Virus record (IMG/VR): IMGVR_UViG_3300036766_001847
Coordinates: 1-53,271 of that record
DNA: 53,271 nucleotides
Source of the DNA: a virus
Direction: 5' to 3' (one strand)
The notes under the pieces are model-generated. The model was not told where the DNA came from and did not search any database. It saw nothing but the letters and a program-made list of their open reading frames with translations. Below, piece by piece: positions 3,653 through 52,349 of the stretch. A program made the position numbers and the translations under genes. Every line of letters begins with the position of its first letter. Position 1 is the first letter of the stretch.

Positions 3653-3673
3653 GTCCACGACCGAGGGCAGGAT
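3653..3673 (+). promoter_or_regulatory. Late-block motif copy A (GTCCAC-N9-CAGGAT)
   Basis: First of seven copies of a 21-base element consisting of GTCCACG, a CC pair, a GG pair and GAGGAT with fixed internal spacing. Here the right half is CAGGAT. It starts four bases after a TAG stop and ends 11 bases before the ATG of the small membrane gene at 3685, which leads into the portal gene. The element itself is directly seen; its role as promoter or operator is inference. Confidence 0.7.
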
Positions 3674-3684
3674 GTCGGTCGAGC

Positions 3685-3876
3685 ATGAGCCCGACCACCG
3701 ACGCCAGGAAGCCGCCGCGCGCGGCCGCGCTCGTTCGTAGCTTCGTCATCGACGGCTCGATCTTGGCCGGCGCCGGGCTCCTGGGCTACGGGGCCTGGCT
3801 CGCCTACCGCCCGGCTGGGTTTCTCGTCGCCGGCGCGCTCTTCCTCGCTGCAGGGCTGAAGGCAACCCGCAAATGA
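3685..3876 (+). CDS. Small membrane protein
   Basis: 63 residues with a basic N-terminus and two hydrophobic stretches (about residues 24-40 and 44-58, the second FLVAGALFLAAGL). It is likely an inner-membrane peptide with two short segments, or a helical hairpin. It ends in an ATGA overlap with the portal gene at 3873-3876, so it is co-translated with it. A membrane protein immediately ahead of the portal is unusual in HK97-like modules. Function is unknown; superinfection exclusion would only be a guess. Confidence 0.6.
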   Translation: MSPTTDARKPPRAAALVRSFVIDGSILAGAGLLGYGAWLAYRPAGFLVAGALFLAAGLKATRK

Positions 3877-6269
3877 GCCTCTTCGAAACGCTCTTCGGCG
3901 GCCGTCAGGAAGAAAAGGTGGCCGACGCATCGGCCCTCACCTGGACCGAGCTGCTCGGCTTCCCGTCGTCGAAGACCGGCGTCTCGGTGACCTGGCAGAC
4001 CGCCCTGCGGGTCTCGGTCGTCTGGGCCTGCTGCAGGGTGCTCTGCGAGGACGTCGGCAAGGTGCCGCTCAAGCTGATGCGGTCGAACCCCGACGGCTCG
4101 ACGGAGATCTGCCGCACCCATCCGCTGCACCGGGTGCTCTCGAGGAACCCGAACGAGTGGCAGACCTCGATGGAATGGAGGATGACCCAGCTCCTCCACG
4201 CCCTCCTCGCGCGCGGCGGCTACTCCTGGATCAACCGGAGCTCCGAAGGCGAGGTGCTCGAGCTGATTCCGCTGATGCCACAGTTCGTAATCCCGAAGAG
4301 GGACCGGAACTGGAACATCACCTACGAGGTCCGCGACATCGACGGTACGATCGCCATCCTCCCGCGCGAATCCGTGCACGTTCTCCACGGCCTTTCCTGG
4401 GACGGGCTGAACGGGCTCGACGTGACGTACCAGGGCGGCGAGGCCATCGGGCTGTCGATCGCCACCGAGGAGACGCAGGCCCGCCTGCACGGGCAGGGGA
4501 CGCGGCCCGGCGGGGTCATCACGACGACCTCGAAGCTCGACGACAAGCAGATCGACCGCCTCAAGCTGCAGTTCGCGAATAACTACTCGGGCGTGGCCAA
4601 CGCCTTCAAGACGCTGCTGCTCGACAACGGCCTGGAGTTCAAGCCATGGGCGATGAGCGGCGTCGACGCGCAGCACCTCGAGTGCGTTGTGCCCGGCACG
4701 CTGGTCTCGATGGCTGACGGGACGAGACTGCCCGTTGAGGCTCTTCGGGTCGGGGATCGGGTAGTTGGGTGGGCCGATGGCCCGGTTGCGGCTCGCGTTG
4801 CCGCGATCGGCCGGCCGCCCACGAAAGACCTCGTCCGCGTGACGACCGCGCGCGGCCGCACGATCACCTGCTCTTCGGACCACCCCTTCCTTTCGATGAA
4901 GTCGCTGCGCACGCCCGGCTCCCGTCCGGTGAAGAGTCCGCCCGAATGGGTGAAGGCCGGCGAGATCGGCCCGGGCCAGTATGTGCGCGTGGGACTTGGT
5001 CACGTTGCTGCCGACTGCGCCACCCTCGATTCCGACGTCGCCTGGTTTCTTGGGGCGATGGTGGGGAACGGTTACATCCGGGGCGGCGGGTGCTCCTTGT
5101 CCACCATCGATCCGGGCGTCATCGCGAAGGCGGAGGCGGTCGTCCGGAGCCAGGGCGGGTGGCTGAAGCAAAGCAACTCGCGGCCACAGGACTTCTTCAT
5201 CGCCACCGGCGGGAAGGGAACGAGTCGTCGCGGCGGGGCGCTCCGACAGCTTTTCAACCGCGCAGGCCTCGTCGGCTCCCATTCGCACACGAAGCGCGTG
5301 CCGGACATGGTCATGGCGGCCGGACCGACCGCGTGGCGCGCGTTCCTCTCCGGCTACCTCGACACCGATGGCACGATCGGAAAGGTCAAAGGCAAGGCGC
5401 CGCTGGTCTCGTGGGGCAGCACGAGCCGCGCGCTTCTCGACGACAGCCAGCACCTTCTCGCCTCTCTCGGAGTGCAATCGGCGATCTACAAGGTCGGCGC
5501 CGGCGGTCGCCGGATGGTGTGCGGTCAGGAATGCGACACGCAGCCCTCCTGGCAACTCGTCGTCTACGGAGCCTCACAGCTCGCGCAGCTCGCGCGACTT
5601 CTGTCCCCCGCGCATTCCGAGAAGGCGTCGCGACTGGTGGAGGTTGGTTCACACCCGCCAAGCCGGTATGGGCAGAACAACGTCCTCTTCGACCGGGTCC
5701 TCTCGGTCGAGCGACTCGGTCGAGGCGAAACGATCGGCGTCGAGATCGAGGGCATCCACACGCACGTGACGAACGGCCTCGTCACGCACAACACCCGCCG
5801 CCACCAGGTCGAGGAGGTATGCCGCTTCTTCCGCGTGTTCCCGGCGATGGTCGGCTTCAGCGACAAGGCGACCACGTACGCGAGCGCCGACGCCTTCCTC
5901 AACGCCCACGTCACGCACTCGCTGATGCCATGGATCACTCTCTGGGAACAGGCGATCGACCGCGACCTGCTCACCTCGGACGAGATCGAGAACGGTTTTC
6001 ACTCCAAGTTCGTGATGCAGGGCCTTCTGCGCGGCGACGCGAAGAGCCGGGCCCTCTTCTACGAGTCGGCCATCACGAAGGGTTGCTGGATGACCCGGAA
6101 CGAGGCGCGCCGGCTCGAGGACCTCGACCCCATCGACGGCCTCGACGACATGCTGCGGCCGCTCAACATGCAGGCGGAGGCTGACGGTCCGCCTGCGCCG
6201 GGAGACCCCGCGGACCCGGCCGATCCCACGGCGGACGACCCGACCGTTCCCGACCCCGGCGCCGAGTAG
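3873..6269 (+). CDS. HK97-type portal protein interrupted by an intein
   Basis: 798-residue precursor. Residues 1-270 and 641-798 join into a 428-residue HK97-type portal, which forms the dodecameric DNA gateway of the head. Recognisable parts are the N-terminal VWACCRVLCEDVGKVPLKL block, the LIPLMPQFV and HGLSWDGLNGLD segments, and the C-terminal GFSDKATTYASADAF block. Residues 271-640 are an intein that must splice out to give a working portal. The ATG overlaps the previous stop. The C-terminus is Pro/Asp-rich (DPADPADPTADD). Placement between terminase and protease is the standard order. Confidence 0.93.
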   Translation: MSLFETLFGGRQEEKVADASALTWTELLGFPSSKTGVSVTWQTALRVSVVWACCRVLCEDVGKVPLKLMRSNPDGSTEICRTHPLHRVLSRNPNEWQTSMEWRMTQLLHALLARGGYSWINRSSEGEVLELIPLMPQFVIPKRDRNWNITYEVRDIDGTIAILPRESVHVLHGLSWDGLNGLDVTYQGGEAIGLSIATEETQARLHGQGTRPGGVITTTSKLDDKQIDRLKLQFANNYSGVANAFKTLLLDNGLEFKPWAMSGVDAQHLECVVPGTLVSMADGTRLPVEALRVGDRVVGWADGPVAARVAAIGRPPTKDLVRVTTARGRTITCSSDHPFLSMKSLRTPGSRPVKSPPEWVKAGEIGPGQYVRVGLGHVAADCATLDSDVAWFLGAMVGNGYIRGGGCSLSTIDPGVIAKAEAVVRSQGGWLKQSNSRPQDFFIATGGKGTSRRGGALRQLFNRAGLVGSHSHTKRVPDMVMAAGPTAWRAFLSGYLDTDGTIGKVKGKAPLVSWGSTSRALLDDSQHLLASLGVQSAIYKVGAGGRRMVCGQECDTQPSWQLVVYGASQLAQLARLLSPAHSEKASRLVEVGSHPPSRYGQNNVLFDRVLSVERLGRGETIGVEIEGIHTHVTNGLVTHNTRRHQVEEVCRFFRVFPAMVGFSDKATTYASADAFLNAHVTHSLMPWITLWEQAIDRDLLTSDEIENGFHSKFVMQGLLRGDAKSRALFYESAITKGCWMTRNEARRLEDLDPIDGLDDMLRPLNMQAEADGPPAPGDPADPADPTADDPTVPDPGAE
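4683..5792 (+). other. Intein with LAGLIDADG homing endonuclease domain, inside portal
   Basis: 370 residues (271-640 of the precursor). It starts with Cys (CVVPGTLVSMADG, block A), has a block B-like ITCSSDHPFL, and ends GIHTHVTNGLVTHN with terminal His-Asn followed by Thr as the +1 extein residue. These are all hallmarks of a splicing-competent intein. The centre carries two LAGLIDADG-type helices: WFLGAMVGNGYI (about 391-402) and FLSGYLDTDGTI (about 491-502). The first has Asn399 where the metal-binding acidic residue is expected; the second keeps Asp499. Splicing is therefore likely but endonuclease activity is doubtful. Confidence 0.93.
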
Positions 6270-6278
6270 CGGCACCCG

Positions 6279-6593
6279 ATGGCAACGCTCTTCGAGCCCT
6301 TCGAGGTCCGTTTCCCGCAGGACCCGATCGTCGAGGTGAACGAGCCGCGACCTGGGTTGCTGAAGAGGATCGCGCGGTGGTGGGGCGCGATGGCGGATCG
6401 CACCTGCCCGCGCTGCGGCGGCGTCTTCCGGCCGCTCAGCCCCGGTGCGCGCGGTGGCTACTCTCCGAAGCCGCTGTGCCAGGAATGCGACACGCTGGCG
6501 CGAGCGCATCCGCCGCAGGGCGGAAGCGGGCTCGTGCTACCGCGGCCGCTCCCGACATCGCTACCCGGGCCCGGGCGGCGCACGAGCTACTGA
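6279..6593 (+). CDS. Small zinc-ribbon hypothetical protein
   Basis: 104 residues. One four-Cys zinc ribbon is visible in the middle (CPRCGGVFRPL, then CQEC about 28 residues on), followed by a Pro/Gly-rich tail. It lies between portal and protease with ten bases to the portal stop. No family is recognised. The start at ATG 6279 gives the longest sensible product; an internal ATG at 6390 would still include the ribbon. It could bind DNA or protein; nothing in the sequence decides. Confidence 0.6.
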   Translation: MATLFEPFEVRFPQDPIVEVNEPRPGLLKRIARWWGAMADRTCPRCGGVFRPLSPGARGGYSPKPLCQECDTLARAHPPQGGSGLVLPRPLPTSLPGPGRRTSY

Positions 6594-6628
6594 CTCTCCC
6601 CTCCTCAGTCGCCGGGCGCGAAAGAGCT

Positions 6629-6649
6629 GTCCACGGCCCGGGAGAGGAT
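6629..6649 (+). promoter_or_regulatory. Late-block motif copy B (GTCCAC-N9-GAGGAT)
   Basis: Second copy, a perfect match to the consensus, preceded by GCGAAAGAGCT, which is shared with copy C and partly with copy E. It lies in the gap after the zinc-ribbon gene and ends 10 bases before ATG 6660 of the protease gene, so it heads the protease-capsid block. An ATG inside the element (6648) is in frame with the protease, but using it would place the start within the motif. Confidence 0.75.
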
Positions 6650-6659
6650 GCCTCTCGTC

Positions 6660-7406
6660 ATGGACCTCGCAACTCCTCCCGGGTTCGAAGAGCGGCTCGT
6701 CGCCAAGCCATACACGGTCAAGACGACCGACGATCTCGGTTCGTTCGAGGGCCTCGGCGCGGTCTTCAACGACGTCCACCCGACCAGCTCCTGGGCGCTC
6801 CCAGGCGACTGGAAGGACCGCATCATGCCGGGCGCGTTCATGAAGACGCTCGACGCCCAGAAGCGCATGGGCGTGATGCCCGCGATGCTTTTTATGCACG
6901 AGCGGGGCAACGTCGTCGGGGCCTGGCGCGAGATGGGCGAGACCGGCGCGGGCCTCCACGCCTCGGGCCAGTGCTCGCTGAGCGCGAAGACCTCGTCCGG
7001 CGCCGGCATCCACGAGCTGATGAAGATGGGCGCTCTCAACGCCCTGTCGATCGGCTTCCGGGTCCGCAAGGCCGAGGCCGACAACGACAAGAAGATTCGC
7101 TCCATCCTCGACGTCGAGCTCAACGAGCTCTCGATCGTCGACATCCCGGGTATCCCCCGGGCGCGCATCACCGACGTGAAGTCGGGCGGCGCGAAGAGCA
7201 TCAGGTTTCTCGAGATGGTCCTGCGCGACGCCGGCCTATCCCGAGAAGAAGCCAAGGCCGTGTTGGCCCAAGGCTTCGGCGCCCTGCGCGACGTTGCGGC
7301 GCCAGACGACGGCTCGAGCCTGCGCGAAGCAGGTGGGGACGGCGAAACCATCGACGACGCCTTCGTGGCGGGCCTGAAAGAGTTCGCCGCGGCAGTTCAC
7401 CCGTAG
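6660..7406 (+). CDS. Prohead maturation protease, HK97/S78 family
   Basis: 248 residues from ATG 6660; an in-frame ATG at 6648 lies inside the regulatory motif and is less likely. The serine protease triad of the S78 (herpes-like) family can be placed: His80 in FMHERGN, Ser130 in NALSIGF, and an acidic residue in VELNELSIVDIPG. It cleaves the capsid scaffold domain during prohead maturation. The first ~165 residues are the protease; the Gly/Asp-rich tail (about 175-248) may be scaffolding. The major capsid gene follows after 18 bases. Confidence 0.9.
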   Translation: MDLATPPGFEERLVAKPYTVKTTDDLGSFEGLGAVFNDVHPTSSWALPGDWKDRIMPGAFMKTLDAQKRMGVMPAMLFMHERGNVVGAWREMGETGAGLHASGQCSLSAKTSSGAGIHELMKMGALNALSIGFRVRKAEADNDKKIRSILDVELNELSIVDIPGIPRARITDVKSGGAKSIRFLEMVLRDAGLSREEAKAVLAQGFGALRDVAAPDDGSSLREAGGDGETIDDAFVAGLKEFAAAVHP

Positions 7407-7424
7407 GTTTCGGAGCACCCCACC

Positions 7425-8744
7425 ATGGCGGACCAGGACGAAGCGAAGAAGGCCCTCGAAGAGCTGAGCAAGAACTTCAAGGAGTTCCGCGAGGTCAACG
7501 ACAAGCGGCTCGAGGCGCTGAAGGCCGAGCGCGCGACGTCGGACTTCGACGAGAAGCTCGACCGCATCAACGAGTCGATGGCCAAGCAGGAGCGCGTGCA
7601 GCGCGACTTCCTCCGCACCCAGGAAGCGGCCGCCGCCAAGCACGAGGCCGCGGAGGCCGAGTTCAAGGCGCGCCAGCAGGAATCGGAGCGCAAGCTCGAG
7701 GCGCGCGTCAACCGCCTGGTGCTCGGCATCCCGGGCGCCAACGACGGCGAGTCGACCTCCGACGAGAGGTTGAAGCGTCGGGCATACGTGAACTACCTCC
7801 GCAAGGACACCAAGGGCCTGAGCGGCGAGGAGATGAAGGTCCTCGTCGAGGCTGGCGACCCGACCGGCGGCTATCTCGCGCCGCCCACGTTCGTCACCGA
7901 GATCATCAAGGCGGTGGTCCTGTTCTCGCCGATGCGCCCGCTCGTGACCGTGCGCCAGAGCAGCTCGGCCGAACTCCAGCTGCCCAAGAGGACGCAGACC
8001 GCCGCGGCGACCCGCGTCGGCGAGGCGTCGACCCGGACCGAGTCGCAGAACCCCGGATGGGGCCTGCTGAAGATCACATCGCCCGAGATGTACGCCGAGG
8101 CGCGCGTGAGCCAGGCCAACCTCGAGGACTCGGCCTTCAACCTCGAGCAGCTGCTCACCGACGAGTTCTCCGAGCAGTTCGGCGTCAAGGAGGGGGCCGA
8201 GGTCATCAGCGGCACCGGCGTGAATCAGTGCCTGGGCTTCCTCGACGCCAACGCGGCCGGGCCGGGCGTGCCGATCGCCTACACCCCGTCGACCCAGGCG
8301 GCGACCATCGCCAGCGCCGCGGCCGGTAACGCGGGCCAGGGCGACGGGCTCATCGACCTGTTCCACACGGTGAAGACGGCGTATGCCGCCCGCGGCACCT
8401 GGTGCCTGAATCGCAACTCGCTGGGCAAGGTGCGCAGCCTGAAGGACACCCAGGGGCACTACCTCTGGCAGCCGGGCATCGCGACCTCCTCGCCCCCGAC
8501 CATCCTGGGAGCGCCGTACGTCGAATGCCCGGACATGCCGAACGAGGGCGCCAACACCTTCCCGATCGCCTTCGGAGACTGGAAGCGGGCGTACACCCTG
8601 GTCGACCGCATCGAGATGGCCATCGTCCGCGACCCGTACACCGTGGCTTCGTCCGGCCAGGTCAAGTTCTTCGCGCGCCGCCGGGTCGGCGGCCAGGTGG
8701 TCTTGGGAGAGGCCATCAGGTTGTACAAGTGTGCCTCCACGTAG
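7425..8744 (+). CDS. HK97-fold major capsid protein
   Basis: 439 residues. The first ~105 are strongly charged and coiled-coil forming (KKALEELSKNFKEF, KQERVQRDFLRTQEAAAAKHEAA interrupted here and there), matching the delta/scaffold domain removed by the S78 protease. The rest has HK97 capsid landmarks: GGYLAPPTFVTEIIK, LFSPMRPLVTV, the ISGTGVNQ loop, TWCLNRNSLGKVRSLKD and a GAPYVECPDMP segment. Place and order (portal, protease, capsid) are canonical. A strong hairpin follows the stop, consistent with an abundant transcript end or mRNA protection. Confidence 0.95.
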   Translation: MADQDEAKKALEELSKNFKEFREVNDKRLEALKAERATSDFDEKLDRINESMAKQERVQRDFLRTQEAAAAKHEAAEAEFKARQQESERKLEARVNRLVLGIPGANDGESTSDERLKRRAYVNYLRKDTKGLSGEEMKVLVEAGDPTGGYLAPPTFVTEIIKAVVLFSPMRPLVTVRQSSSAELQLPKRTQTAAATRVGEASTRTESQNPGWGLLKITSPEMYAEARVSQANLEDSAFNLEQLLTDEFSEQFGVKEGAEVISGTGVNQCLGFLDANAAGPGVPIAYTPSTQAATIASAAAGNAGQGDGLIDLFHTVKTAYAARGTWCLNRNSLGKVRSLKDTQGHYLWQPGIATSSPPTILGAPYVECPDMPNEGANTFPIAFGDWKRAYTLVDRIEMAIVRDPYTVASSGQVKFFARRRVGGQVVLGEAIRLYKCAST

Positions 8745-8754
8745 TCGACGCCCT

Positions 8755-8788
8755 GATGGGGCGGCCCAGCTGAACCGGCCGCCCCATC
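8755..8788 (+). terminator. Strong hairpin after the capsid gene
   Basis: A perfect 12-bp stem (GATGGGGCGGCC at 8755-8766 with GGCCGCCCCATC at 8777-8788) and a 10-base loop, starting 10 bases after the capsid stop. There is no T-run, so it may act as a leaky terminator or as a stabilising 3' end for capsid mRNA rather than a full stop. Confidence 0.7.
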
Positions 8789-8855
8789 GCCCAGCCCGGA
8801 CCCCCTTTCCCCCAACCCTTTCCAGAACCGCGCAGCACCCCGCGAGGAACCAAAA

Positions 8856-9287
8856 ATGAACATCAAGGACCTGCACAACAATATCAAGATTTCCCCCGCC
8901 ATCGACCCGGCGGCGGTCGTCGCCAGCAACGGCACGAAGACGAGCAACACCATCGACCGCCAGGGCTTCGAGTCGCTCGAGTTCGCCATCATCTCCGGCG
9001 TCCTCACCGACGGCACGTACACGCCGACTCTGTACGAGAGCGACACCGTCGACGGCAACGGCGTCATGACCAGCGAGGCCGCGGTGTCGGCCGCCGGCGA
9101 CATGCTCGGGACCGCGGACGGGGCGACGCTCGTCTACACCACCGATGCCTCGGCGGTGAAGAAGATCGGCTACATCGGGAACAAGCGGTACGTGCGCCTC
9201 AAGGTCGTCCAGAGCGGCTACACCAGCGGCGGATTCGTCTGCGCGGTGGCCATCCAGGGCGGCGCGCGCAACGCCCCCGTCGCGTAG
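8856..9287 (+). CDS. Putative head decoration/accessory protein
   Basis: 143 residues, starting at ATG 8856 after GCGAGGAACC. The sequence is beta-rich with many Thr/Gly/Val (GTYTPTLYESDTVDGNG, KRYVRLKVVQSGYTSGG) and no membrane segment or cysteine pair. Small beta-rich proteins directly after the capsid gene are often capsid stabilising or decoration proteins. That is the basis of the call; no specific family is recognised. Confidence 0.6.
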   Translation: MNIKDLHNNIKISPAIDPAAVVASNGTKTSNTIDRQGFESLEFAIISGVLTDGTYTPTLYESDTVDGNGVMTSEAAVSAAGDMLGTADGATLVYTTDASAVKKIGYIGNKRYVRLKVVQSGYTSGGFVCAVAIQGGARNAPVA

Positions 9288-9305
9288 GCCGGCGGAGTTC
9301 CACCC

Positions 9306-9323
9306 GGGCGGTGAAAGCCGCCC
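9306..9323 (+). terminator. Short GC hairpin between head genes
   Basis: GGGCGG and CCGCCC arms (6 bp) around a six-base loop TGAAAG, shortly after the stop at 9287. No T-tract. It could be a weak terminator or a processing signal; it is recorded because it sits in the 93-base gap before 9381. Confidence 0.35.
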
Positions 9324-9380
9324 CCAGCCCGCCTGGCGCGACGTGCGCCGGGCGGCAGGCTCACCAAGGGACGGCGCGCG

Positions 9381-9833
9381 ATGAGAGTCCGGATGCTCAG
9401 CACGAGGCGGGGCGCCGACGACGGCGTGACGCTCCGCACCTACCACGAGGGGACGGAGCACGACCTCTCGGCCACGCCGCGCGCTCTCGACCTCGCCCAG
9501 GTCTTCATCCGGGAGGGGTGGGCCAAGGAAGTGAAGCCGCCCGCGCCGGTGCCGGTGCCGGTCGAGCGCCTGCCCTTGCTCGCGGAGTATGTCGCGGCCG
9601 GCTACCAGGCCGCCACCTACGAGGCCTTCATCGCCGAGCACACCGCCGCGGCGAAGGCCGCCGGCCGCCGCGTCGAGGTGCGCGAGCTCACCGCCGCCGA
9701 GAAGGCGGAGGACGAGGCGCAGAAGGCGAAGGCCCTCGCGGGCGAGGACGCCCTCGGCAAGGTCGACGAGAAGAAGGCGCCCGACGCCCCGCCCCCGGCC
9801 AAGCCCGACCAGCGCCCGAATCGGCGGAAGTAA
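9381..9833 (+). CDS. Hypothetical head-region protein
   Basis: 150 residues. The N-terminal ~50 form a compact segment ending in DLAQVFIREGWAKEV, reminiscent of small phage proteins placed before the connector genes. The middle repeats an Ala-rich helix (EYVAAGYQAATYEAFIAEHTAAAKAAG), and the C-terminus is charged and Pro-rich (KKAPDAPPPAKPDQRPNRRK), likely disordered. I do not recognise a named family. It stands immediately upstream of the gp6-like connector gene. Confidence 0.6.
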   Translation: MRVRMLSTRRGADDGVTLRTYHEGTEHDLSATPRALDLAQVFIREGWAKEVKPPAPVPVPVERLPLLAEYVAAGYQAATYEAFIAEHTAAAKAAGRRVEVRELTAAEKAEDEAQKAKALAGEDALGKVDEKKAPDAPPPAKPDQRPNRRK

Positions 9834-9836
9834 CCA

Positions 9837-10541
9837 GTGCCCGCCCGGCTCGTCACCGCGCCGGAGACCGAGCCCGTCTCCGTGGCGGAGGCGAAGGCCC
9901 ATCTCCGGCTCGATGCCGACGACGACGACGCGACCGTAGCGGCGCTCATTCAGGCGGCGCGCCAGCATGTCGAGAAGACCTGCCGCCGCGGGCTGGTGAC
10001 CCAGACATGGGAGTTGGTGCTCGAGCGCTTCCCGCTCCGGGTCCTCGACTTCACCCGCTACCACCTCTTCCCTGGGGGCGTCGTCGGCCAGCCTCCCGGG
10101 CTGCTGAGCCACCACTCGCACCCGCGGGACCCCTACGGCTCGTTCGAGCTGCCCGAGGGCGCCCTAGCGAAGCTCGTCGACGGCTCAGGTAACCCCCTGA
10201 GCCCGGTCCTGTCGGTGAAGTACATCGACGGCGCCGGCGTCGAGCAGACCCTCGCCGAGGGCACCGACTACGTGGTGGACAGCGTCGACGAGCCCGGCCG
10301 CGTCCTGCTCGCCTACGGGAAGAGCTGGCCCGCCACCCGCGCGCAGTGGGACGCGGTCAAGGTCCGGTACACCGTGGGGTGGTCGGTGGAGGACGTGCCG
10401 CAGCCGATCAAGTCGGCGATGCTCTTGCTCGTTTCGCAGCTGTACGAGCACCGGACCCCCGAGGTCATCGGCGCCGTCATCTCCAAGGTGCAGTTCGCGG
10501 TGGACAACCTGCTCGCGGGCTACCTTCTGGTGAGGGTGTAG
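9837..10541 (+). CDS. Head-tail connector, gp6-like
   Basis: 234 residues from GTG 9837. The opening (APETEPVSVAEAKAHLRLD, then DDDATVAALIQAARQHVEKTC) is the typical signature of gp6-like/phiE125 gp8-type head-tail connector proteins, and QPIKSAMLLLVSQLYEHR near the C-terminus is the conserved closing helix. These proteins form the ring below the portal. An insertion of about 30 residues (about 70-100) lengthens it beyond the ~100-200 residues usual for the family. Its stop overlaps the next GTG. Confidence 0.85.
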   Translation: MPARLVTAPETEPVSVAEAKAHLRLDADDDDATVAALIQAARQHVEKTCRRGLVTQTWELVLERFPLRVLDFTRYHLFPGGVVGQPPGLLSHHSHPRDPYGSFELPEGALAKLVDGSGNPLSPVLSVKYIDGAGVEQTLAEGTDYVVDSVDEPGRVLLAYGKSWPATRAQWDAVKVRYTVGWSVEDVPQPIKSAMLLLVSQLYEHRTPEVIGAVISKVQFAVDNLLAGYLLVRV

Positions 10542-10888
10542 TGATTCGCGCGGGCCAGATGCGCCAGACCGTGCGGATCGAGCAGCGCTCGAAGTCCCAG
10601 GACGCCGCGGGCGAGCCGCTCGACAGCTGGACCCTCTTCGCCGAGCGCCGGGCGGCCATCCAGCGCGCGCCAGGCAAGGAACTCTGGGCGAGCGGTGAGC
10701 GGCAGGGGCGCGTGCCGACCGTCTTCCGGCTCCGCTACCTCGATGGCGTGCTCCCGGAGATGCGGCTGTTGCTCAAGAAGCCCAAGGGCGAGTGGGCGCT
10801 CTACGACATCGTCTCCGCGACGGACCCTGACGGGCGGCGTGAAGAGCTCATCGTGACCTGCACCGAGTGGGTGGGGGCGAAGCCTTGA
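10541..10888 (+). CDS. Head-tail joining (head closure/adaptor) protein
   Basis: 115 residues from GTG 10541, which overlaps the TAG of the previous gene; the frame is open upstream but that is shadow. The N-terminal GQMRQTVRIEQRSKSQDAAGEPLDSW and the AERRAAIQ segment are characteristic of the phage head-tail joining family (SPP1 gp16-like), small beta-barrel proteins that close the head after packaging. The position, second after the capsid accessory genes, fits. Confidence 0.85.
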   Translation: MIRAGQMRQTVRIEQRSKSQDAAGEPLDSWTLFAERRAAIQRAPGKELWASGERQGRVPTVFRLRYLDGVLPEMRLLLKKPKGEWALYDIVSATDPDGRREELIVTCTEWVGAKP

Positions 10889-10890
10889 GG

Positions 10891-11148
10891 ATGCCGTGGG
10901 CCAGCTGGGCGCGCATTCCGATGCGGGTCTCCGTCAATGGGGGCCGCCATCTCGCGGTGCCCCTTCTGCCGTTTCGCATGCGCTTCAGCTCCGCGAACAA
11001 CGGGACCACGGTCGTGGTTCTCACCGGATGGACCCGGTGGCTCGCCTTCCTCTTTGCCAGGGTGGTTGTGTGGGCGATCGCCTTGCTCGCCCTGGTCTTC
11101 GATTGGAAGGTGGACGTCGAGATTGGGCAGAGCGAGGCCGTCCCGTGA
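10891..11148 (+). CDS. Small single-pass membrane protein in the connector block
   Basis: 85 residues from ATG 10891, with TGAGG just before it. A hydrophobic segment of about 22 residues (WLAFLFARVVVWAIALLALVF) near residues 52-72 is a likely inner-membrane helix, preceded by a basic region. It overlaps the next gene by four bases (GTGA). Membrane proteins are not expected among connector genes, so it may be an inserted cargo gene; no function can be assigned. Codon pattern and overlap support translation. Confidence 0.6.
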   Translation: MPWASWARIPMRVSVNGGRHLAVPLLPFRMRFSSANNGTTVVVLTGWTRWLAFLFARVVVWAIALLALVFDWKVDVEIGQSEAVP

Positions 11149-11645
11149 TCATCGCCAACATCACCGGCGCCAAGGAGCTCGAAGCCCAGCTGCTCGAGCT
11201 GAACAACGTCGCGCTCGCGGTGAAGGTCATCGCCGCGGCGGCGCGGAAGGCCTTCCTGCCGGTCATCGAAGACGCCAGGGGCATGGTGCCCACGGACAGC
11301 ACGGCGCTCAGGGACTCGATCAAGATCACGACCAAGAAGTCTAAGGACGGCGACGCGGTCGTCATCGTTGGGTTGAAGATCGCCGGCCCTAGGCGGAACT
11401 CGAGGAAGTGGTTCGAGCGGCGCAACGCTGGCGAGGAGAAGCTCATCGCGCCGAAATCCCGCTGGCATTTCGTCGAGTTCGGAGCGGCCCACAACGCCGC
11501 GCACCCTTTCATCCGCCCGGCCCTCGACCGGAACGCCACCAAGATCGTCATGCTCCTCAAGGAAGAGCTGGTGAAGGGAATCGCCCGGGCGGTGAAGAAG
11601 CAGGCGCGGGCTGATGCCGGCTGGAAGGTCCGGGTGCTCGAGTGA
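11145..11645 (+). CDS. HK97 gp10-like tail component
   Basis: 166 residues from GTG 11145. Features of the HK97 gp10 family are visible: an N-terminal helix pair around LEAQLLELNN and AVKVIAAAARKAFLPV, the motif VPTDSTALRDSIKI, a beta segment VVIVGLKIAG, and the HFVEFGAAHNAAHPFIRPAL closing block. These proteins sit at the head-tail interface and help terminate or join the tail. Stop and start overlaps on both sides show tight coupling. Confidence 0.88.
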   Translation: MIIANITGAKELEAQLLELNNVALAVKVIAAAARKAFLPVIEDARGMVPTDSTALRDSIKITTKKSKDGDAVVIVGLKIAGPRRNSRKWFERRNAGEEKLIAPKSRWHFVEFGAAHNAAHPFIRPALDRNATKIVMLLKEELVKGIARAVKKQARADAGWKVRVLE

Positions 11646-12016
11646 TGGTCATCGAGGCAGTGCTCGCCGAGCTCGCGAAGGACGCCACCGTGACCGCGCT
11701 GGTGGGGACGAGCGTCTTCCCCCAGGCGGCGCCCGAGGGCGAGCAGCCCCCGCACGTGGTGCTCTCGGTCGTCTCCGACGTCCCTGAGAATTCGTTCACC
11801 GGCACCGAGGCTGACCGGACCCGGAGCATCCGCCTGCAGGTCGACTGCTACGCCAAGGGCTACATCAAGGTCCACCAGGTGGCCGACGCCGTCGCCGCGG
11901 TGCTCGGCGCGCTCGCGCGGCCGGACCTCTCCGCGGTGCGCGAGATAAGCCGGGACCTCTACGACGACCCGACACAGCTGCACCGCGTCTCCTCGGATTT
12001 CTCCGTCACGATGTAG
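11642..12016 (+). CDS. Tail completion protein, DUF3168-like
   Basis: 124 residues; GTG 11642 overlaps the previous stop and an ATG follows at 11645, either giving nearly the same product. It has the DUF3168 pattern: an N-terminal helix, TALVGTSVFPQAAPEGEQPPHVVLSVVS in pieces, a central VDCYAKGYIKVHQVADAV and a C-terminal RVSSDFSV strand. The family is the gp11/gpU-like tail terminator that caps the tail end nearest the head. Its place before the tail tube gene is standard. Confidence 0.85.
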   Translation: MMVIEAVLAELAKDATVTALVGTSVFPQAAPEGEQPPHVVLSVVSDVPENSFTGTEADRTRSIRLQVDCYAKGYIKVHQVADAVAAVLGALARPDLSAVREISRDLYDDPTQLHRVSSDFSVTM

Positions 12017-12029
12017 CGGCGAAAGAGCT

Positions 12030-12050
12030 GTCCACGGCCCGGGCGAGGAT
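12030..12050 (+). promoter_or_regulatory. Late-block motif copy C (GTCCAC-N9-GAGGAT)
   Basis: A perfect consensus copy with the longer GCGAAAGAGCT extension shared with copy B. It starts 13 bases after the tail completion stop and lies 40 bases before the tail tube ATG at 12091, which has its own GGAGG site. The element is therefore not simply a ribosome binding site. Confidence 0.78.
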
Positions 12051-12090
12051 GTTGCCCGCTCGCTCGAAACCGTTCTGGAGGTAGCCCGAG

Positions 12091-12528
12091 ATGACCACGA
12101 AGGCGAAAGCAACGCGGGGGACAAAGCTCCAGCGCGGAGACGGCGCGACCCCGGAGACTTTTACCACCATCGCCGAGGTGAGGTCGTCCAAGGGGCCCAG
12201 CACCAAGGTCGGAACCATCGACGCGACCACGTATGACTCGACGGCCAAGGAGTTCGTCGCCGACATCCCGGACGCGGGCGAGGTCACCTTCGAGCTCAAC
12301 GAAGTTGCCTCCGATGTCCAGCAACAGGGCCTGCAGGCGGACAGGGACGCGGGAACGCTGCGCAACTTCAGGCTGGTCAAGAATGACCATCCGATCGCCC
12401 CGTCCACGACCACGTTCGCGTCCCTCACCATTGGCTATGACCCGGAGGCGCCTGCGGGAGCGCTCTACAAGGCGAGCGTGACCCTGAAGGTCTCGGGACT
12501 GCCGGTCCGCACCTACGCCCCGAGTTAG
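12091..12528 (+). CDS. Major tail tube protein
   Basis: 145 residues; GGAGGT stands nine bases before ATG 12091. The pattern ETFTTIAEVRSSKGPSTKVGTIDATTYDS followed by beta-strands and a C-terminal LTIGYDPEAPAGALYKASVTLKVSG (given here in part) matches lambda gpV-like tail tube proteins, which stack as hexamers into the tail tube. There is no Ig-like C-terminal domain. Context, between completion protein and chaperone, agrees. Confidence 0.88.
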   Translation: MTTKAKATRGTKLQRGDGATPETFTTIAEVRSSKGPSTKVGTIDATTYDSTAKEFVADIPDAGEVTFELNEVASDVQQQGLQADRDAGTLRNFRLVKNDHPIAPSTTTFASLTIGYDPEAPAGALYKASVTLKVSGLPVRTYAPS

Positions 12529-12585
12529 TCGGATACCCGAGCAAACCTCCCGGGTTCGCCCGGCACGCAGACGGAGAACACGACC

Positions 12586-12924
12586 ATGACGCTCCTCCCC
12601 CCAGCCGTTACCGACCGCGTCGGCGTGGACATCGCCGGCGCTGCGGCCACCTCGACCACCGGCGACACCTTCGCCAACAGCGGGTCCGAACTGCTCTTTG
12701 TCAAGAACGGCGCCGGCGCGCCCATCACGCTCACGCTGGACATCCAGTCGAAGCTCGACGGCCAGGCGCTGACCGACCCGGCGCCGAGCCTGACGAACGG
12801 GCACACCTACGTCCTCGGGCCGTTCCCGCCCGCGTACTACAACGACGCCAACGGGCGCGTGAAGGTCACATGCAGCGACGCGACCAGCATCACCCTCAAG
12901 GTCATCAAGCCGGCGACCACCTAG
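12586..12924 (+). CDS. Tail-region paralogue 1 (beta-rich, possible tube decoration)
   Basis: 112 residues, closely related to the next gene: both share a DIxG start, STTGDTFANSG/STGDTFASTG, a VKNGA/VNNAS turn, a long middle, and GPFPPAYYND/GPYPPGIYND before a final strand rich in Val/Thr. The beta-rich 110-residue size suits an Ig-like or jelly-roll decoration. A GC hairpin with a TTCG loop (12550-12563) lies upstream. The function is inferred only from position between tail tube and chaperone. Confidence 0.7.
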   Translation: MTLLPPAVTDRVGVDIAGAAATSTTGDTFANSGSELLFVKNGAGAPITLTLDIQSKLDGQALTDPAPSLTNGHTYVLGPFPPAYYNDANGRVKVTCSDATSITLKVIKPATT

Positions 12925-12952
12925 CCGCCACCGCCTCACCCGGAGAACCGCA

Positions 12953-13297
12953 ATGGCCCTTCTCGACATCGCCGTGGCCGCCCGCGCAGGGGCCGACATC
13001 ACCGGAGTGGTCCCGACGGCTTCGACCGGCGACACCTTCGCCAGCACCGGCGCCGAACTGGTGGTGGTGAACAACGCCAGCGCAAGCCCCATCAACGTCA
13101 CCGCCCACATCCCGACCACGATCGACGGCGCGGCGCCGACCGCGGACCCCGTGCACTCGGTGGGCGCGCACAGCACCTCCATCTTCGGGCCCTACCCCCC
13201 GGGCATCTACAACGACCCGACGACCGGGCTGACGAAGCTCACCTGCTCGGCCGTGACCAACGTCACCGTCGCGGTCGCGAAGGCCGGCTCCGCGTAA
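12953..13297 (+). CDS. Tail-region paralogue 2 (beta-rich, possible tube decoration)
   Basis: 114 residues, a tandem duplicate of the preceding gene with clear colinear similarity across the full length (STGDTFASTGAELVVVNNA, GPYPPGIYNDPTTG, then a Thr/Val-rich final strand). ATG 12953 follows GGAGAACCGCA. The two copies have diverged substantially, so they are likely both functional. They could decorate the tail tube or form a heteromer. No named family is recognised. Confidence 0.7.
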   Translation: MALLDIAVAARAGADITGVVPTASTGDTFASTGAELVVVNNASASPINVTAHIPTTIDGAAPTADPVHSVGAHSTSIFGPYPPGIYNDPTTGLTKLTCSAVTNVTVAVAKAGSA

Positions 13298-13309
13298 CCC
13301 GAGGTACTC

Positions 13310-13705
13310 ATGGACATCCTCACGCAGGAGAAGCTGCTTGCGGTGCAGAACCGCAAGTTCGAGCTCGTCGACGTCCCCGAGCTGGGCGGCAGCGTGCGCC
13401 TCGGCAGTCCGACCGCCGCAACCGTCATCGAGATTCGGCAGCTCGAGCGCCGTCGCGCGAAGGGGGAGGACGTCGAGAAGGACCTGACGTTGCTCCTCAT
13501 CTCGTCCACGGTAGTCGATGGCGTGGGCCGGGCCGTCTTCGACAAGGAGACCGCGGCGGCCTTCCTGGACCGCATCTCGCCGGACACGATGGCGAAGCTC
13601 GTCGAGGAGTCGACGCGCATGATGAAGGGCGCGACCCAGGGCCAGGCCCCGGCGTCCCCCTCCGTGGCCAGCCCGAGCGCGTCCTCGCCCACAGGCTCTG
13701 TCTAA
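13310..13705 (+). CDS. Tail assembly chaperone, gpG-like
   Basis: 131 residues. The body (FELVDVPELGGSVRLGSPTAATVIEIRQLER and VEKDLTLLLISSTVVDG, abbreviated here) is typical of tail assembly chaperones that coat the tape measure during tail assembly. The C-terminal ~25 residues are Ala/Ser/Pro-rich (ASPSVASPSASSP), a flexible end. The stop at 13703-13705 lies within an overlapping -1 frame that encodes a gpT-like domain, so this is the short product of a G/GT pair. Confidence 0.82.
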   Translation: MDILTQEKLLAVQNRKFELVDVPELGGSVRLGSPTAATVIEIRQLERRRAKGEDVEKDLTLLLISSTVVDGVGRAVFDKETAAAFLDRISPDTMAKLVEESTRMMKGATQGQAPASPSVASPSASSPTGSV

Positions 13706-13983
13706 AGCTCGGCTACTGGCCGCACCCGGACTACCTGCTCTCCCTGCTCTCGCCCCGCCAATGGGACGACTGGCGCGAGTACTGGGAGCTCGAGCCCTGG
13801 GGTTTCCCCGCCGAGGACCTCCGGTTGGGCGTGACCTGCGAGACGATCGCACGGTCGGTCGGGTCCGACCTCTCGCGGACGGCCTTCATGGTGCGGCCGC
13901 CCGAGGAGGAAGAGGCCGATCCAGATGAGGACCCCTTCGACGCCTTCTGTGACCTGTTTGACCCGAAGAAGAAGCAAGGGTGA
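13310..13983 (+). CDS. Tail assembly chaperone long form, gpGT-like, by -1 frameshift
   Basis: In the -1 frame beyond the chaperone stop, an uninterrupted reading to TGA 13981-13983 encodes LCLKLGYWPHPDYLLSLLSP, then QWDDWREYWELEPWG, and an acidic end (EEEEADPDEDPFDAF). This matches lambda gpT-like domains. No ATG, GTG or TTG precedes it in that frame after about 13560, so it can only be made as a fusion by ribosomal frameshifting, as in lambda G/GT. The exact slip site is unclear; the C5 run at 13656-13660 is the nearest repetitive stretch, not a textbook heptamer. Confidence 0.75.
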
Positions 13984-13996
13984 GCCGGGCGGACCC

Positions 13997-14017
13997 GTCC
14001 ACGCCCGGGGAGAAGAT
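13997..14017 (+). promoter_or_regulatory. Late-block motif copy D (GTCCAC-N9-GAAGAT)
   Basis: Copy with a one-base variant in the right half (GAAGAT). It lies 13 bases after the end of the chaperone long form and eight bases before the tape measure ATG, making it the only sequence between them. Its GGGGAGAAG part could also serve as ribosome binding site for the tape measure gene. Confidence 0.72.
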
Positions 14018-14025
14018 GAATTCCG

Positions 14026-16563
14026 ATGTCTAAGACCCTCGCCTCTCTTGTCGTGAGCCTCCAGGTCGAGTCCGCGCAGCTGCGCGCCGGGCTCGACAGG
14101 GCGAACGCGGACATCAAGAAGTTCTCTGACGAGGCAGAGGGCGGCTTCACCATCCTCAAGGGGGCGATGGCGGATCTCGCCGCGGAGGGCGTCGAGAAGC
14201 TGCTCGGCTTCGCGGAAGAAGGCGTCAAGTCCTTCATCCGGTTCGACCAGGCGCAGAGGCAGCTCGCGGCCGCCACCGGAGAGAACGCGGAGGCCTTCAC
14301 CGCGCAGGCCGAGGCGCTGCGCGACAACCTCGGGGTGAGCGTCACCTCGGTGATGCACCTCGACATGCTCGCGGCGCGCTACGGCACCAACCACGGGCAG
14401 ATCAGCCAACTCACCAAGGACGTCCTCGACTACTCGGCTGCGACCGGGCACGACGCCAGCCAGGCAATGGAGACGCTCCTCAAGGGCGTCGAGAACGGCG
14501 GGTCCGGCCTGAAGCGGATGGGAATCGCCTACCAGTCGACGGGCGACTCGGCGAAGGACCTCGACCAGGCGATGGCCATTCTCGAGGGCCGCTTCGGGGG
14601 AGCGGCGCAGGTGAACGCCGAGTCTCTCGGCGGCCAGCTCGAGGTGATGAAGGGCCAGATGGAGGCCCTCGGCGAGGCGTTCGGAAAGTTCATTGCCGAC
14701 GTCAACACGAAGCTCGGCGTCCTGAAAGCGTTGACGGAGACCTTCAGGGATCTCCGGACTCTGATGGACTCGAAGTTCACTGGCTTCACCATCGACTCCA
14801 GGGGCATCGGCGCGGACTTCGAGACGCCCGAGCAGCAGAGGCACAACGCGCAGAGCGATGAGGAGGACGTCCTCAAGAAGCAGCAGGCGAAGCTGCAGGA
14901 GGCCCAGGCAAGCGCTGCGCGCGGGATGGGGGCCTCGACCTCCGAGGAGATCGCCGCGCTGAAGAAGTCGGTCGAGGTTCACCAGACGCGACTCGCCGTG
15001 ATGAAGGCCGAAGCGGCGATCTCAGAGGCGCAAGGCAAGGTCGACCCGGACAAGGGGCCGACAAGCCACCACGTAGGAGCGGAGGCCCGCGACCCGACCG
15101 CCCGCATCAAGCGCGCGCTCGAGGCGCAGATGGAGAACGCGCACAAGCTGGCCGTCGAGGCCATCAAGGACCAGGAGGATCAGGAGAAGCGCCAGTTCCG
15201 GATCGACAAGGACCTATTCCAGGCCCAGCTCGAGATGAAGAAGATCCTCGGCGACGCCGACCTCCGGGATGCCCACATCCTCGGCGTCGCAATGCGCAAG
15301 GAGTTCATGGAGTCGCTCGACGTCGCCGGGAAGCTGTGGGGCGGAATGCAAACGACCGTCGGAGGGGCGCCCGGGCACCACAATGCTGCGGTCCTCACGG
15401 TGACCGCGCCGGCCGCTCCGGACGATGTGAGTGGTCCCAGCCCGATCACGAGGGTACAGGCGGCTTTCCTGACCCTGGGCGACATGCTCGGGGGCAAGCT
15501 GGCCGAGCTCGGAGGGACGGTCGGGATGGTCCTCGACCGGGCCGCGCTGTCCCTCAGCCGCGGCGCCGAAGCCGGTGTCGGCTACCTGGTCGACTCCATC
15601 AAGAGCGCGGCAAGCGCGGTCCTGGACGGCGTGATGGGGAGCATGGGCGAGCTCGGAACGCTGATGAGCGGCGTGATGAAGGGCTTCCAGTCGGGCGGCA
15701 TCTGGGGCGCGCTGGCGGCGGCAATCTCCCAAATCATGCAGCACGCACCTTCCTTCGCCACCACGCTCAAGATCGTCTCCGGCATCTTCCAGCAGCTCGG
15801 TTCGAAGCTAGACCGCCTGGCAACGTCGATGCAGCCGTTGATTGCGGCCATCGGGACCGTGATCGGCCAGGTCCTGGACGCGATCGCGCCGGTGCTCAAC
15901 TCCCTGGGCGGTCTTTTCCGGGCACTCATTCCCTGGCTGGCGATGCTGGGGCCGGCCCTCCAGTCGCTGGCTCCGCTCTTCCATGCCATCGCGTGGATTT
16001 TCACCGCGCTCGCGCCGGTGTTGGACAAGCTATTCCAGGCCAGCAAGTGGATGGCGATCGCCACCCTGAACGTCGTCAAGGCGATGGGAGACGCCTGGGA
16101 TTTCATGGTCGTCGAGCTGGCCCAGTTCGCCTGGGGGCTCGGGCTCAATGACCTCGGGAACACGATCCAGGGCCTCTACATCCATATGAACGGGCTCGAC
16201 AAGGCGATCACCGACATGAACGCGGTGACCATCGCCGGTTCCCAGGCGGCAGCCGACAACGCGGCGGCCCAGGATGCGGCCGCCGGCGCGGCGGCGAAGG
16301 CCGCCGGGGGCATGAAGTCGTTCTCGGAGCAGATCGCCAACGGTCCCAGCGGCTGGAACGCCGCCGGCGCGCGCTATGGCGCCGAGGGAACGGGAGGGGG
16401 ATCGCGCTTTGGGATGCCACCCCCTGGCGGAACCGCAGCGCCAGGCGGCGGCCCGGCCGTGCAGGTTATCGTGCACGGCAACGTCTACGCCGACGACCTC
16501 CAGCAGAAGGTGAGCGACGCAGTCCAGAAGCAGTTCTTCTACCTGCACGGGGTGCCCGCGTGA
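14026..16563 (+). CDS. Tail tape measure protein
   Basis: 845 residues, the second-longest gene product here. N-terminal coiled coils (SLQVESAQLRAGLDRANADIKKF) lead into the tape measure core with FDQAQRQLAAATGENAEAF and LKGVENGGSGLKRMGIAYQ; a charged helical region spans about 270-430. A long hydrophobic, Gly/Ala-rich part (about 480-740) contains possible membrane-inserting segments. It sets tail length: at about 1.5 angstrom per residue this predicts a tail near 125 nm (inference). The stop overlaps the next GTG. Confidence 0.9.
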   Translation: MSKTLASLVVSLQVESAQLRAGLDRANADIKKFSDEAEGGFTILKGAMADLAAEGVEKLLGFAEEGVKSFIRFDQAQRQLAAATGENAEAFTAQAEALRDNLGVSVTSVMHLDMLAARYGTNHGQISQLTKDVLDYSAATGHDASQAMETLLKGVENGGSGLKRMGIAYQSTGDSAKDLDQAMAILEGRFGGAAQVNAESLGGQLEVMKGQMEALGEAFGKFIADVNTKLGVLKALTETFRDLRTLMDSKFTGFTIDSRGIGADFETPEQQRHNAQSDEEDVLKKQQAKLQEAQASAARGMGASTSEEIAALKKSVEVHQTRLAVMKAEAAISEAQGKVDPDKGPTSHHVGAEARDPTARIKRALEAQMENAHKLAVEAIKDQEDQEKRQFRIDKDLFQAQLEMKKILGDADLRDAHILGVAMRKEFMESLDVAGKLWGGMQTTVGGAPGHHNAAVLTVTAPAAPDDVSGPSPITRVQAAFLTLGDMLGGKLAELGGTVGMVLDRAALSLSRGAEAGVGYLVDSIKSAASAVLDGVMGSMGELGTLMSGVMKGFQSGGIWGALAAAISQIMQHAPSFATTLKIVSGIFQQLGSKLDRLATSMQPLIAAIGTVIGQVLDAIAPVLNSLGGLFRALIPWLAMLGPALQSLAPLFHAIAWIFTALAPVLDKLFQASKWMAIATLNVVKAMGDAWDFMVVELAQFAWGLGLNDLGNTIQGLYIHMNGLDKAITDMNAVTIAGSQAAADNAAAQDAAAGAAAKAAGGMKSFSEQIANGPSGWNAAGARYGAEGTGGGSRFGMPPPGGTAAPGGGPAVQVIVHGNVYADDLQQKVSDAVQKQFFYLHGVPA

Positions 16564-17321: not shown

Positions 17322-17322
17322 C

Positions 17323-20055: not shown

Positions 20056-20069
20056 TCCGCCACCGACCC

Positions 20070-20471
20070 CTATTGAGCTGGTGCGGCGCTGGCGAGGGCA
20101 GCCTTGCAGTCGGTCCGGCCGGCTGCCGTCGTGCAGACGTATGGCTTGCCGCAAGCGGTGAACCGGTACGCGCGCTCGTCTCCACGCGTCCATGCAGCGG
20201 TTTCGACCAGGTGAATGCTGGCCGACGGGCAGCTCGTCTCCAGCGCCAGGCGGTCTGCGGAGATCTTCTGCGCGGTGCGCTCCGTGGATTCCGGCGTCTC
20301 GGAGCACGCGTCAGGGAAGGCCGCCTGCGAACTCGAGCGGCAGAGGAACTGCCGGTCACAGAGGTTCACGGACCAAATGCGAGAGCCGGTGTCGACCTCG
20401 GCGCCGTCCTTTGCGCACTTGGTCTGCTGGGCCACGATGTCGATCGCGGTTTCTTCTGCGACCCCCGCCAT
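20070..20471 (-). CDS. Minus-strand Cys-rich protein, probable truncated exported protein (moron-like)
   Basis: 133 residues from ATG 20471, the only leftward gene in the late region. Eight or so Cys residues and the C-terminal RAYRFTACGKPYVCTTAAGRTDCKA resemble the CGK-x-Y-x-C ending seen in myxobacterial secreted and lipoproteins. Upstream in the same frame are open codons, then one TGA (about 20526-20528), then a hydrophobic VGWALALVLWRGQIAPA that would make a fitting signal peptide. The gene therefore looks like an exported protein cut from its signal by a single stop. Its site between tail tip and exported genes suggests acquired cargo. Confidence 0.55.
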   Translation of the reverse strand: MAGVAEETAIDIVAQQTKCAKDGAEVDTGSRIWSVNLCDRQFLCRSSSQAAFPDACSETPESTERTAQKISADRLALETSCPSASIHLVETAAWTRGDERAYRFTACGKPYVCTTAAGRTDCKAALASAAPAQ

Positions 20472-20587
20472 CTCCCGGGCTCGCGCCTTTTCCTTCTCGG
20501 CCCGCCCCTGCGGGAATCCGGAGGGTCATGCGGGAGCAATCTGCCCCCGCCACAGGACCAGCGCAAGCGCCCACCCCACGAAGAGCT

Positions 20588-51610: not shown

Positions 51611-51762
51611 ACCGCCCGGAACGTCGAATTGCCGGGCGCGGCGCCTGGCGGCGCAGTGTGCTCGCCTCCGCCGACATGGGGATCGAGCTCGCCGAAGCAA
51701 ACACCCTCTTCTTCGAGGCGTTCTCGGGCGGGAAGCGGCCGTGGTGCGCATGGAGGCAATAG
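51607..51762 (+). CDS. Small phage protein (GIELAEANTLFFEAF type)
   Basis: From GTG 51607 (51601 and 51604 are alternatives) to TAG 51760-51762, about 51 residues. The C-terminal GIELAEANTLFFEAFSGGKR then PWCAWRQ has strong coding character and is in a different frame from the open reading around it. GGAGG in its last codons serves the next gene. Function is unknown. Confidence 0.5.
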   Translation: MNRPERRIAGRGAWRRSVLASADMGIELAEANTLFFEAFSGGKRPWCAWRQ

Positions 51763-51764
51763 CG

Positions 51765-52349
51765 ATGAGGCCAGGGACGGAAGAACCGATGATCTCCGCA
51801 GCGCTCCGCGACCTGCCTCTTGCTGCCGAGGCGGCCGACTACGAGGACGGCGTCGCTTACTGCTCAGGTCCCGAGTGCGATCGGCCGGTGTTTCGTCTAG
51901 GACTGTGCGAGGGGCATTGCAAGCAGCGGCAACGCCAGAAGCCTCTCGCGCCGCTGGCTGAGAAGCTCACCCCGCGCCAGCGGTTCTACGAGGCGATCAC
52001 CGCGTGGGCCGAGTGCGACTCGGGCGACGATGAGGCCTATGCCGAGGCCGAGCGCTCGGTCGAGTACGCGGCCCGCCAGGCGTTCGGGAAGAAGAACGCC
52101 GGCGAGGCGATCCGGAAGGGCATGGCGGCGGCGCGCGCGCGCGGTGTTCGCGTCGGTCGCCCGCCCAAGCTCGCCCAGAAGGAAGCCCAAGCGCTGGTGC
52201 TGAAGACGGGAAGCTTCCGCGCCGCGGCCAAGAAGTTGGGCGTGCACTGGATCACCGTCTGGCGCGCCATTCGCCGCGCCGCGGTTGCGCAAAGCGACCT
52301 TTTGCAATCGCCGCCGAGTGGTCCACGACCGCGGCGAGGATCTCGGTGA
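51765..52349 (+). CDS. Helix-turn-helix protein with resolvase-type C-terminus
   Basis: 194 residues from ATG 51765, chosen for GGAGG eight bases upstream and because it follows the previous stop by two bases. It has a small Cys cluster (CSGPECDRP...CEGHC, about 33-53), a long helical middle and a C-terminal GVRVGRPPKL followed by SFRAAAKKLGVHWITVWRAI. This is the HTH found at the ends of resolvase-like proteins, without a resolvase domain. Its last residues are encoded by motif copy G. A regulator of late genes is possible. Confidence 0.65.
   Translation: MRPGTEEPMISAALRDLPLAAEAADYEDGVAYCSGPECDRPVFRLGLCEGHCKQRQRQKPLAPLAEKLTPRQRFYEAITAWAECDSGDDEAYAEAERSVEYAARQAFGKKNAGEAIRKGMAAARARGVRVGRPPKLAQKEAQALVLKTGSFRAAAKKLGVHWITVWRAIRRAAVAQSDLLQSPPSGPRPRRGSR
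52321..52341 (+). promoter_or_regulatory. Late-block motif copy G (GTCCAC-N9-GAGGAT)
   Basis: Seventh copy, perfect in both halves, overlapping the last ten codons of the HTH gene and ending seven bases before ATG 52349 of the HNH-kinase gene. Across the genome join it would head the packaging block (HNH, then terminase). Confidence 0.72.

Follow-up and report, generated by a model that had tools for sequence, protein, structure and literature searches.

A two-part motif heads the late gene blocks of a temperate phage and its relatives, and probably marks activator-dependent late promoters

What is the 21-bp element that stands seven times, always in the same orientation, just ahead of late gene blocks in the IMG/VR virus record IMGVR_UViG_3300036766_001847? 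The window, by which we mean the whole 53,271-nt (53 kb) stretch analyzed here, is the genome of a temperate tailed phage with a G+C content of 69%. Its late genes run in the order terminase, portal, protease, HK97-type capsid, adaptors, tail tube, tape measure and exported proteins, and after them come a leftward early region, an integrase gene resembling that of Mx8 (39% identity to Mx8 Int) and a rightward operon of early/middle genes, of which g77 and an HNH gene are the last. The window ends seem to join, so that the copy of the element at 52321 would head a block of HNH, small terminase and large terminase genes. On the basis of the integrase, g77 and the G+C content, the host is probably a myxobacterium; a terminase scan of the genome collection recovered no myxobacterial prophage. 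We consider it likely that the copies are late promoters of an activator-dependent kind, composed of a weak −10 and a GTCCAC(G) box and giving rise to leaderless or near-leaderless mRNAs, with g77 as the likeliest activator.

Scanning both strands of the window, we located seven 21-mers, all on the plus strand, as follows (T21 denotes the last base of the motif):

3653 to 3673, plus strand: motif copy, proposed promoter of the membrane peptide-portal block; ATG at 3685, T21+12
6629 to 6649, plus strand: motif copy, proposed promoter of the protease-capsid block; ATG at 6660, T21+11
12030 to 12050, plus strand: motif copy, proposed promoter of the tail tube block; ATG at 12091 after a 41-nt gap, with its own GGAGG
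13997 to 14017, plus strand: motif copy, proposed promoter of the tape measure block; ATG at 14026, T21+9
20588 to 20608, plus strand: motif copy, proposed promoter of the post-tail (exported protein) operon; ATG at 20633, T21+25, with its own GGAGG
26541 to 26561, plus strand: motif copy, proposed promoter of the last late block; GTG at 26569, T21+8
52321 to 52341, plus strand: motif copy GTCCACGACCGCGGCGAGGAT, proposed promoter of the HNH-terminase block; ATG at 52349, T21+8

These copies scored 27.0–29.6 bits against a position matrix, while the next best site on either strand scored 14.6; since the matrix was built from the seven copies themselves, the meaningful figure is the gap to that next site. 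The consensus GTCCACGnCnnnGGnnAnnAT matched seven times on the plus strand of the window, never on the minus strand, and never in 200 first-order simulations. Although only 7.3% of the window lies outside predicted genes, six of the seven copies are found there, the seventh (52321) overlapping the 3′ end of the preceding gene, g77. The initial annotation of this DNA had already placed the seven copies at these coordinates and had listed their invariant positions correctly (GTCCACG, C9, GG at 13–14, A17, and AT at 20–21); in motif numbering, A at −4 and C at −2 each occur in six of the seven, as it said, and we found G at −5 in all seven. Its view of the element as a dedicated, one-stranded start signal for late genes, absent from the early region, was borne out, as was its argument from the separate GGAGG at copies 12030 and 20588 that this is not merely a ribosome site.

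The sequence was described in that annotation as unrelated to any known one, a statement that no longer stands: the pattern GTCCAC-N10-A-N3-T is present at late block heads in nine related IMG/VR contigs (given here by short labels such as G016) and in the Myxococcus phages Mx8 and Mx9. Two sites in L125, whose terminase is the closest to that of the window (71%), match window copies 3653 and 6629 in location: GTCCACGCTGAGCCCTACCCT precedes its membrane peptide gene, and GAGCTGTCCACGGCCACC, truncated where the contig ends, follows its portal gene. Searching with the portal as query returned only L125 and one distant relative; more relatives were gathered via capsid and tail tube alignments, and most of the close relatives so gathered have the pattern at the head of the tail tube gene and at other block heads. 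The counterparts of the window copies are:

Copy 3653: L125 3064 (GTG at T21+7) and G016 2756
Copy 6629: G001 4090, G016 4171, G017 3904 and L125 4542 (cut by the contig end)
Copy 12030: the tail tube head in L304, L305, L306, L307, L308, L309, L314 and L318
Copy 13997: G012 10949, tape measure head, ATG at T21+8
Copy 20588: G012 17274, G016 18912, G017 18160 and G001 19038
Copy 52321: G016 41065 (ATG at T21+8) and Mx8 18216, ahead of the terminase operon

Counted over whole records, matches on the late strand and on the other strand numbered 9:0 in G012, 6:0 in G016, 4:0 in G017, 3:0 in both G011 and G015, 2:1 in G013 and 4:0 in G001, where one of the four is antisense inside early genes. In Mx8 and Mx9 the pattern lies between p41 and the terminase operon and also directly before the tail fibre gene p64, in Mx8 (AF396866) exactly 7 nt before the p64 ATG at 36781; the remaining Mx8 matches fall within genes, on the opposite strand. 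In Mx4, which shares its host with Mx8, none of the 33 GTCCAC on the late (plus) strand carried A17 and T21 in the 50 of 57 kb scanned, late genes included. An exact-pattern scan of viral contigs gave at least 117 single matches, many of them antisense in genes or due to chance, and is uninformative alone, and in a brute-force repeat search of Mx8 and Mx9 the signal was drowned by codon bias.

What is conserved across these phages emerged from a comparison of every GTCCAC at gene heads with every GTCCAC inside genes, in the contigs with the window and Mx9 excluded. A17 together with T21 followed GTCCAC at 26 of 36 gene heads, compared with 7 of 162 sites in gene bodies (p = 3e-18); the enrichment held for T21 alone (p = 8e-16) and A17 alone (p = 7e-11), and A-N3-T peaked at that spacing only, with no peak at other offsets. 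The commonest hexamer upstream of the relatives' genes was GTCCAC itself (30 observed, 2.0 expected). Given this enrichment at heads and the single offset peak, the conserved element has two parts at a fixed distance, GTCCAC and an xAxxxT hexamer (−12 to −7 in the promoter numbering used below), with T at −1 (in motif numbering) and G7 favoured in the left part. The dyad, the GG at 13–14 and GAGGAT are confined to the window's own copies, and right halves in the relatives include TACCCT, TACGTT, TACGGT and GACGCT. The imperfect dyad of the initial annotation is thus present in the window copies, but we rejected it as an essential or functional feature since the relatives do not keep it.

The distance from the motif to the gene also has a peak. 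Among 40 curated sites, requiring that the start codon open a frame of at least 40 codons, a start codon lay at T21+7 in 9 and at T21+8 in 11 (p = 9e-7), while spacing controls inside genes, a control set that is not a perfect match, were flat. With one assigned start per site, the gap was 7–14 in 28 of 38 sites and 25–47 in the other 10. Among short-gap genes, 3 of 28 had a Shine-Dalgarno sequence in the gap; the figures were 9 of 10 where the gap was long and 147 of 248 for other genes. Taking T21 as promoter position −7 would put the start codons of short-gap genes at +1 or a few bases after it, and their mRNAs would be leaderless or nearly leaderless.

On this numbering A17 would be −11, and positions 16–21 (GAGGAT and variants) would form a weak −10 hexamer, xAxxxT, for recognition by the housekeeping RNA polymerase of the host. 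With no canonical −35 to assist it, GTCCAC(G), at −27 to −21 and nine bases 5′ of the −10, would most likely be bound by a phage-encoded activator. We propose that g77, made late in the early phase (at the end of early/middle expression), binds GTCCACG and recruits or stabilizes host RNA polymerase at the poor −10, and that transcription starts about 7–8 bases past T21, at the start codon or a few bases before it. Most late messages would then be leaderless or nearly so, while the tail tube and some other blocks would have longer leaders with a Shine-Dalgarno sequence, and the first late promoter would overlap the 3′ end of g77. From 2500 to 21000 we saw no conspicuous terminators separating the blocks, so the late region is probably continuous, with the promoters adding to the transcription of one block after another.

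The right half agrees with a sigma-70-type −10 (A at −11, T at −7, 6–9 bases before the start), the start here being a predicted one. We saw no conservation of a −35 TTGACA at a spacing of 16–18 in 41 sites, and a consensus scan for sigma-70 promoters across the late region (2500–21000) found none; of an extended −10 (TGn at −15/−14) there was no sign, positions 13–14 being GG in the window and unconserved elsewhere. A sigma-54 promoter (GG at −24, GC at −12) was rejected, as the conserved bases are CC at −25/−24 and A at −11. The gene list, profiled in part, holds no unassigned open reading frame of the size of a T7-like polymerase. In the lineage of L221 and L222, which lacks GTCCAC at these heads, TTGACG-16-TAGAAT and TTGACT-17-TAGGCT stand at two of the same block heads, supporting both a promoter at this place and the right half of the motif as a −10. 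L218 has, at the corresponding block heads (before 616 and 7737), a shared element of its own, TTTCAGATTCC.GATT, followed by −10-like boxes of the TAG type; different lineages thus seem to use different upstream boxes.

As for the activator, the candidate is encoded directly upstream of the HNH and terminase genes:

51789 to 52349, plus strand: g77, candidate trans-acting late activator

Its product has a zinc-knuckle-like N-terminus (C-x4-C ... G-x-C-x2-H), a helical middle and a C-terminal helix-turn-helix (HTH) of the resolvase/invertase type, and matches Pfam HTH_Tnp_ISL3 (28.4 bits) and PHROG 125, invertase (1.2e-6). Relatives occur in G016 (1.8e-29), Mx8 (p41, 1.5e-8), Mx9 (p69, 1.2e-8) and G001 (4e-5), all just upstream of HNH/terminase. 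Among motif-bearing contigs covering this region, g77 and the adjacent HNH gene g78 encode the only non-structural window proteins that recur, and g77 is the only regulator-like one with matches in G016, G001, Mx8 and Mx9; the other Mx8 matches are limited to the window integrase and a weak excisionase-like protein. No g77 homologue was found in Mx4 in the portion examined, and the joint absence of motif and g77 relative from that phage makes a phage factor more likely than a host factor, few phages being compared. The initial annotation had put an HTH protein among its candidates, and after comparison of the phages this is the best one. The part common to the family is the knuckle plus a helical stretch, the first cysteine pair being incomplete at the annotated Mx9 start, and the invertase-type HTH is added in g77 and the G016 protein. 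As a single query g77 found no viral relative, and a search with its aligned N-terminal part recovered nothing beyond the G016 and Mx8 records. Structure prediction from three sequences was of low confidence (pLDDT, the predicted local distance difference test, of 67), and Foldseek with that model returned only HTH-like matches at chance level. G016 encodes a second short protein with a g77-type zinc knuckle at 44–289, directly before its small terminase gene.

Several points weigh against late promoters activated by g77. Position −12 of the −10 is usually G instead of T, and since there is neither a canonical −35 nor an extended −10, use of the host RNA polymerase is something we only infer. 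Mx8 p41 and the G001 homologue lack the C-terminal HTH of g77, and the shared part may therefore not be the DNA-binding part. The relatives' sites were mostly picked with A17/T21 required, which inflates their logo, a bias of which the head/body comparison is free; Mx8 and Mx9, being closely related, amount to a single case; and the heads at G013 5132, G015 8916 and G012 23629 deviate. The sequence itself shows the motif, where it sits, its conservation, its fixed spacing and the start-codon peak at T21+7/+8; from these we deduce the transcription start, the role of the −10, binding, dependence on an activator and the identity of that activator.

An alternative that keeps the promoter, and that we consider unlikely, is that GTCCAC is recognized not by a phage protein but by one of the host, either an alternative sigma or a regulator. 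The element occurs in phages of different morphology, the siphophage-type window and the podophage Mx8, which could share only a host, and the missing canonical −35 would fit; however, Mx4, which like Mx8 is a phage of M. xanthus, shows none of the pattern on its plus strand in the 50 of 57 kb scanned, and the g77 family is common to the motif-bearing phages that cover its region. Considerably less probable is that the phage's own sigma factor, g28 (23726–24499), reads the motif as −35/−10; the initial annotation had listed the phage sigma factor among the proteins to try in a gel shift. Its product gives a weak match to sigma region 4 (22 bits in Pfam, below the cut-off; PHROG sigma, 6e-4) and is encoded in a late block, yet it would then be produced from the promoter it is supposed to start, and the nine-base spacing is far from the 16–17 of extracytoplasmic function (ECF) or sigma-70 promoters. 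We rejected g28 as the reader of the motif because no homologue was found in the other motif-bearing contigs.

It is very improbable that the motif acts in RNA, as a ribosome-binding or translational control element, even though the window's right half, GGNGAGGAT, resembles a Shine-Dalgarno sequence and lies 8–12 bases ahead of five start codons. In the relatives A17 and T21 are retained while GAGG is not (TACCCT, GACGCT, TACGTT), and nine of the ten long-gap copies (two in the window, eight in relatives) come with a separate Shine-Dalgarno sequence. The 7–8 spacing, moreover, equals the distance from −7 to +1. The Shine-Dalgarno reading was rejected. The least probable reading in our view is an operator for a repressor, a stoperator, or a recombination (module-exchange) boundary: copies do lie at module boundaries of mosaic genomes, but their single orientation and fixed spacing to start codons speak against it, as do their absence from some boundaries and from the early and leftward regions.

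Known systems offer partial parallels to the late promoters proposed here. T4 middle promoters work through a MotA box and sigma appropriation (PMC7403470). Here too an activator box would take the place of the −35 at a fixed distance to the −10, but the box sequence, its position (−27 to −21) and the class of genes differ. In T4 the MotA box lies at about −30. No MotA or AsiA homologue is among the window's protein matches, no search aimed at motA or asiA having been made. The start-associated sequences (SAS) and extended SAS (ESAS) of cluster K mycobacteriophages are tied to translation starts and in part to inverted repeats, the SAS being GGGATAGGAGCCC (PMC3203893). Like them, the motif is a short one-orientation repeat that lies just 5′ of many gene starts and is kept in relatives, where it stands before different genes; unlike them, it is bipartite and promoter-like, with a −10 and leaderless spacing, and its consensus, GTCCAC-N10-A-N3-T, is not that of SAS. 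The likeness to stoperators or start-associated sequences drawn in the initial annotation accordingly holds for placement and for nothing beyond it. Ogr and Delta of P2 and P4 are zinc-binding late activators, Ogr sites being TGT-N12-ACA dyads near −55. They parallel g77 as a small, putatively zinc-binding phage protein proposed to activate several late operons, but the box here lies in the −35/−10 spacer. RinA, ArpU and lambda Q are regulators encoded just upstream of terminase, and g77 similarly lies directly ahead of a late operon; we saw no sequence relation to them, g77 having a zinc knuckle and a resolvase-type HTH. We would describe the motif family as a phage-specific family of late promoters, with SAS-like placement and T4-middle-like logic, whose sequence and geometry match neither.

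Other features of the window also drew our attention. The portal gene (3873–6269) contains an intein-like insert of about 385 residues, which begins CVVPGTLVSMADG and ends VTHN before T, and the portals of relatives (410–425 aa) lack it. In both the window (20070–20471) and G016 (18513–18767), the tail module is separated from the late block that follows it by a small minus-strand gene, which may be a moron that the prophage expresses. A minus-strand gene of the leftward region, at 33879–35774, encodes an MT-A70-type adenine methyltransferase domain after a ParB-like start and has a homologue in G016.

The open literature, a scope outside which most subscription papers fall, yielded no account of how late promoters of Mx8 are built, and a 2018 review makes no mention of promoters or transcription. 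How late genes are switched on in myxophages, including the widely used transducing phage Mx8, thus seems to be undescribed. Our more specific proposal is tentative: a small zinc/HTH protein of the p41/g77 family may bind GTCCACG in the −35/−10 spacer and direct leaderless or near-leaderless late messages, as a new class of activator-dependent late promoter in a wide group of myxobacterial phages, sipho- and podophages alike. In Mx8 the motif pins the predicted promoters to exact sites that can be tested, one before p42 and one before p64, and comes with a candidate activator, p41; it would represent a case of systematic leaderless late mRNAs. It may also help to locate late operons in relatives that have not been cultured, and could serve myxobacterial genetics as an inducible promoter.

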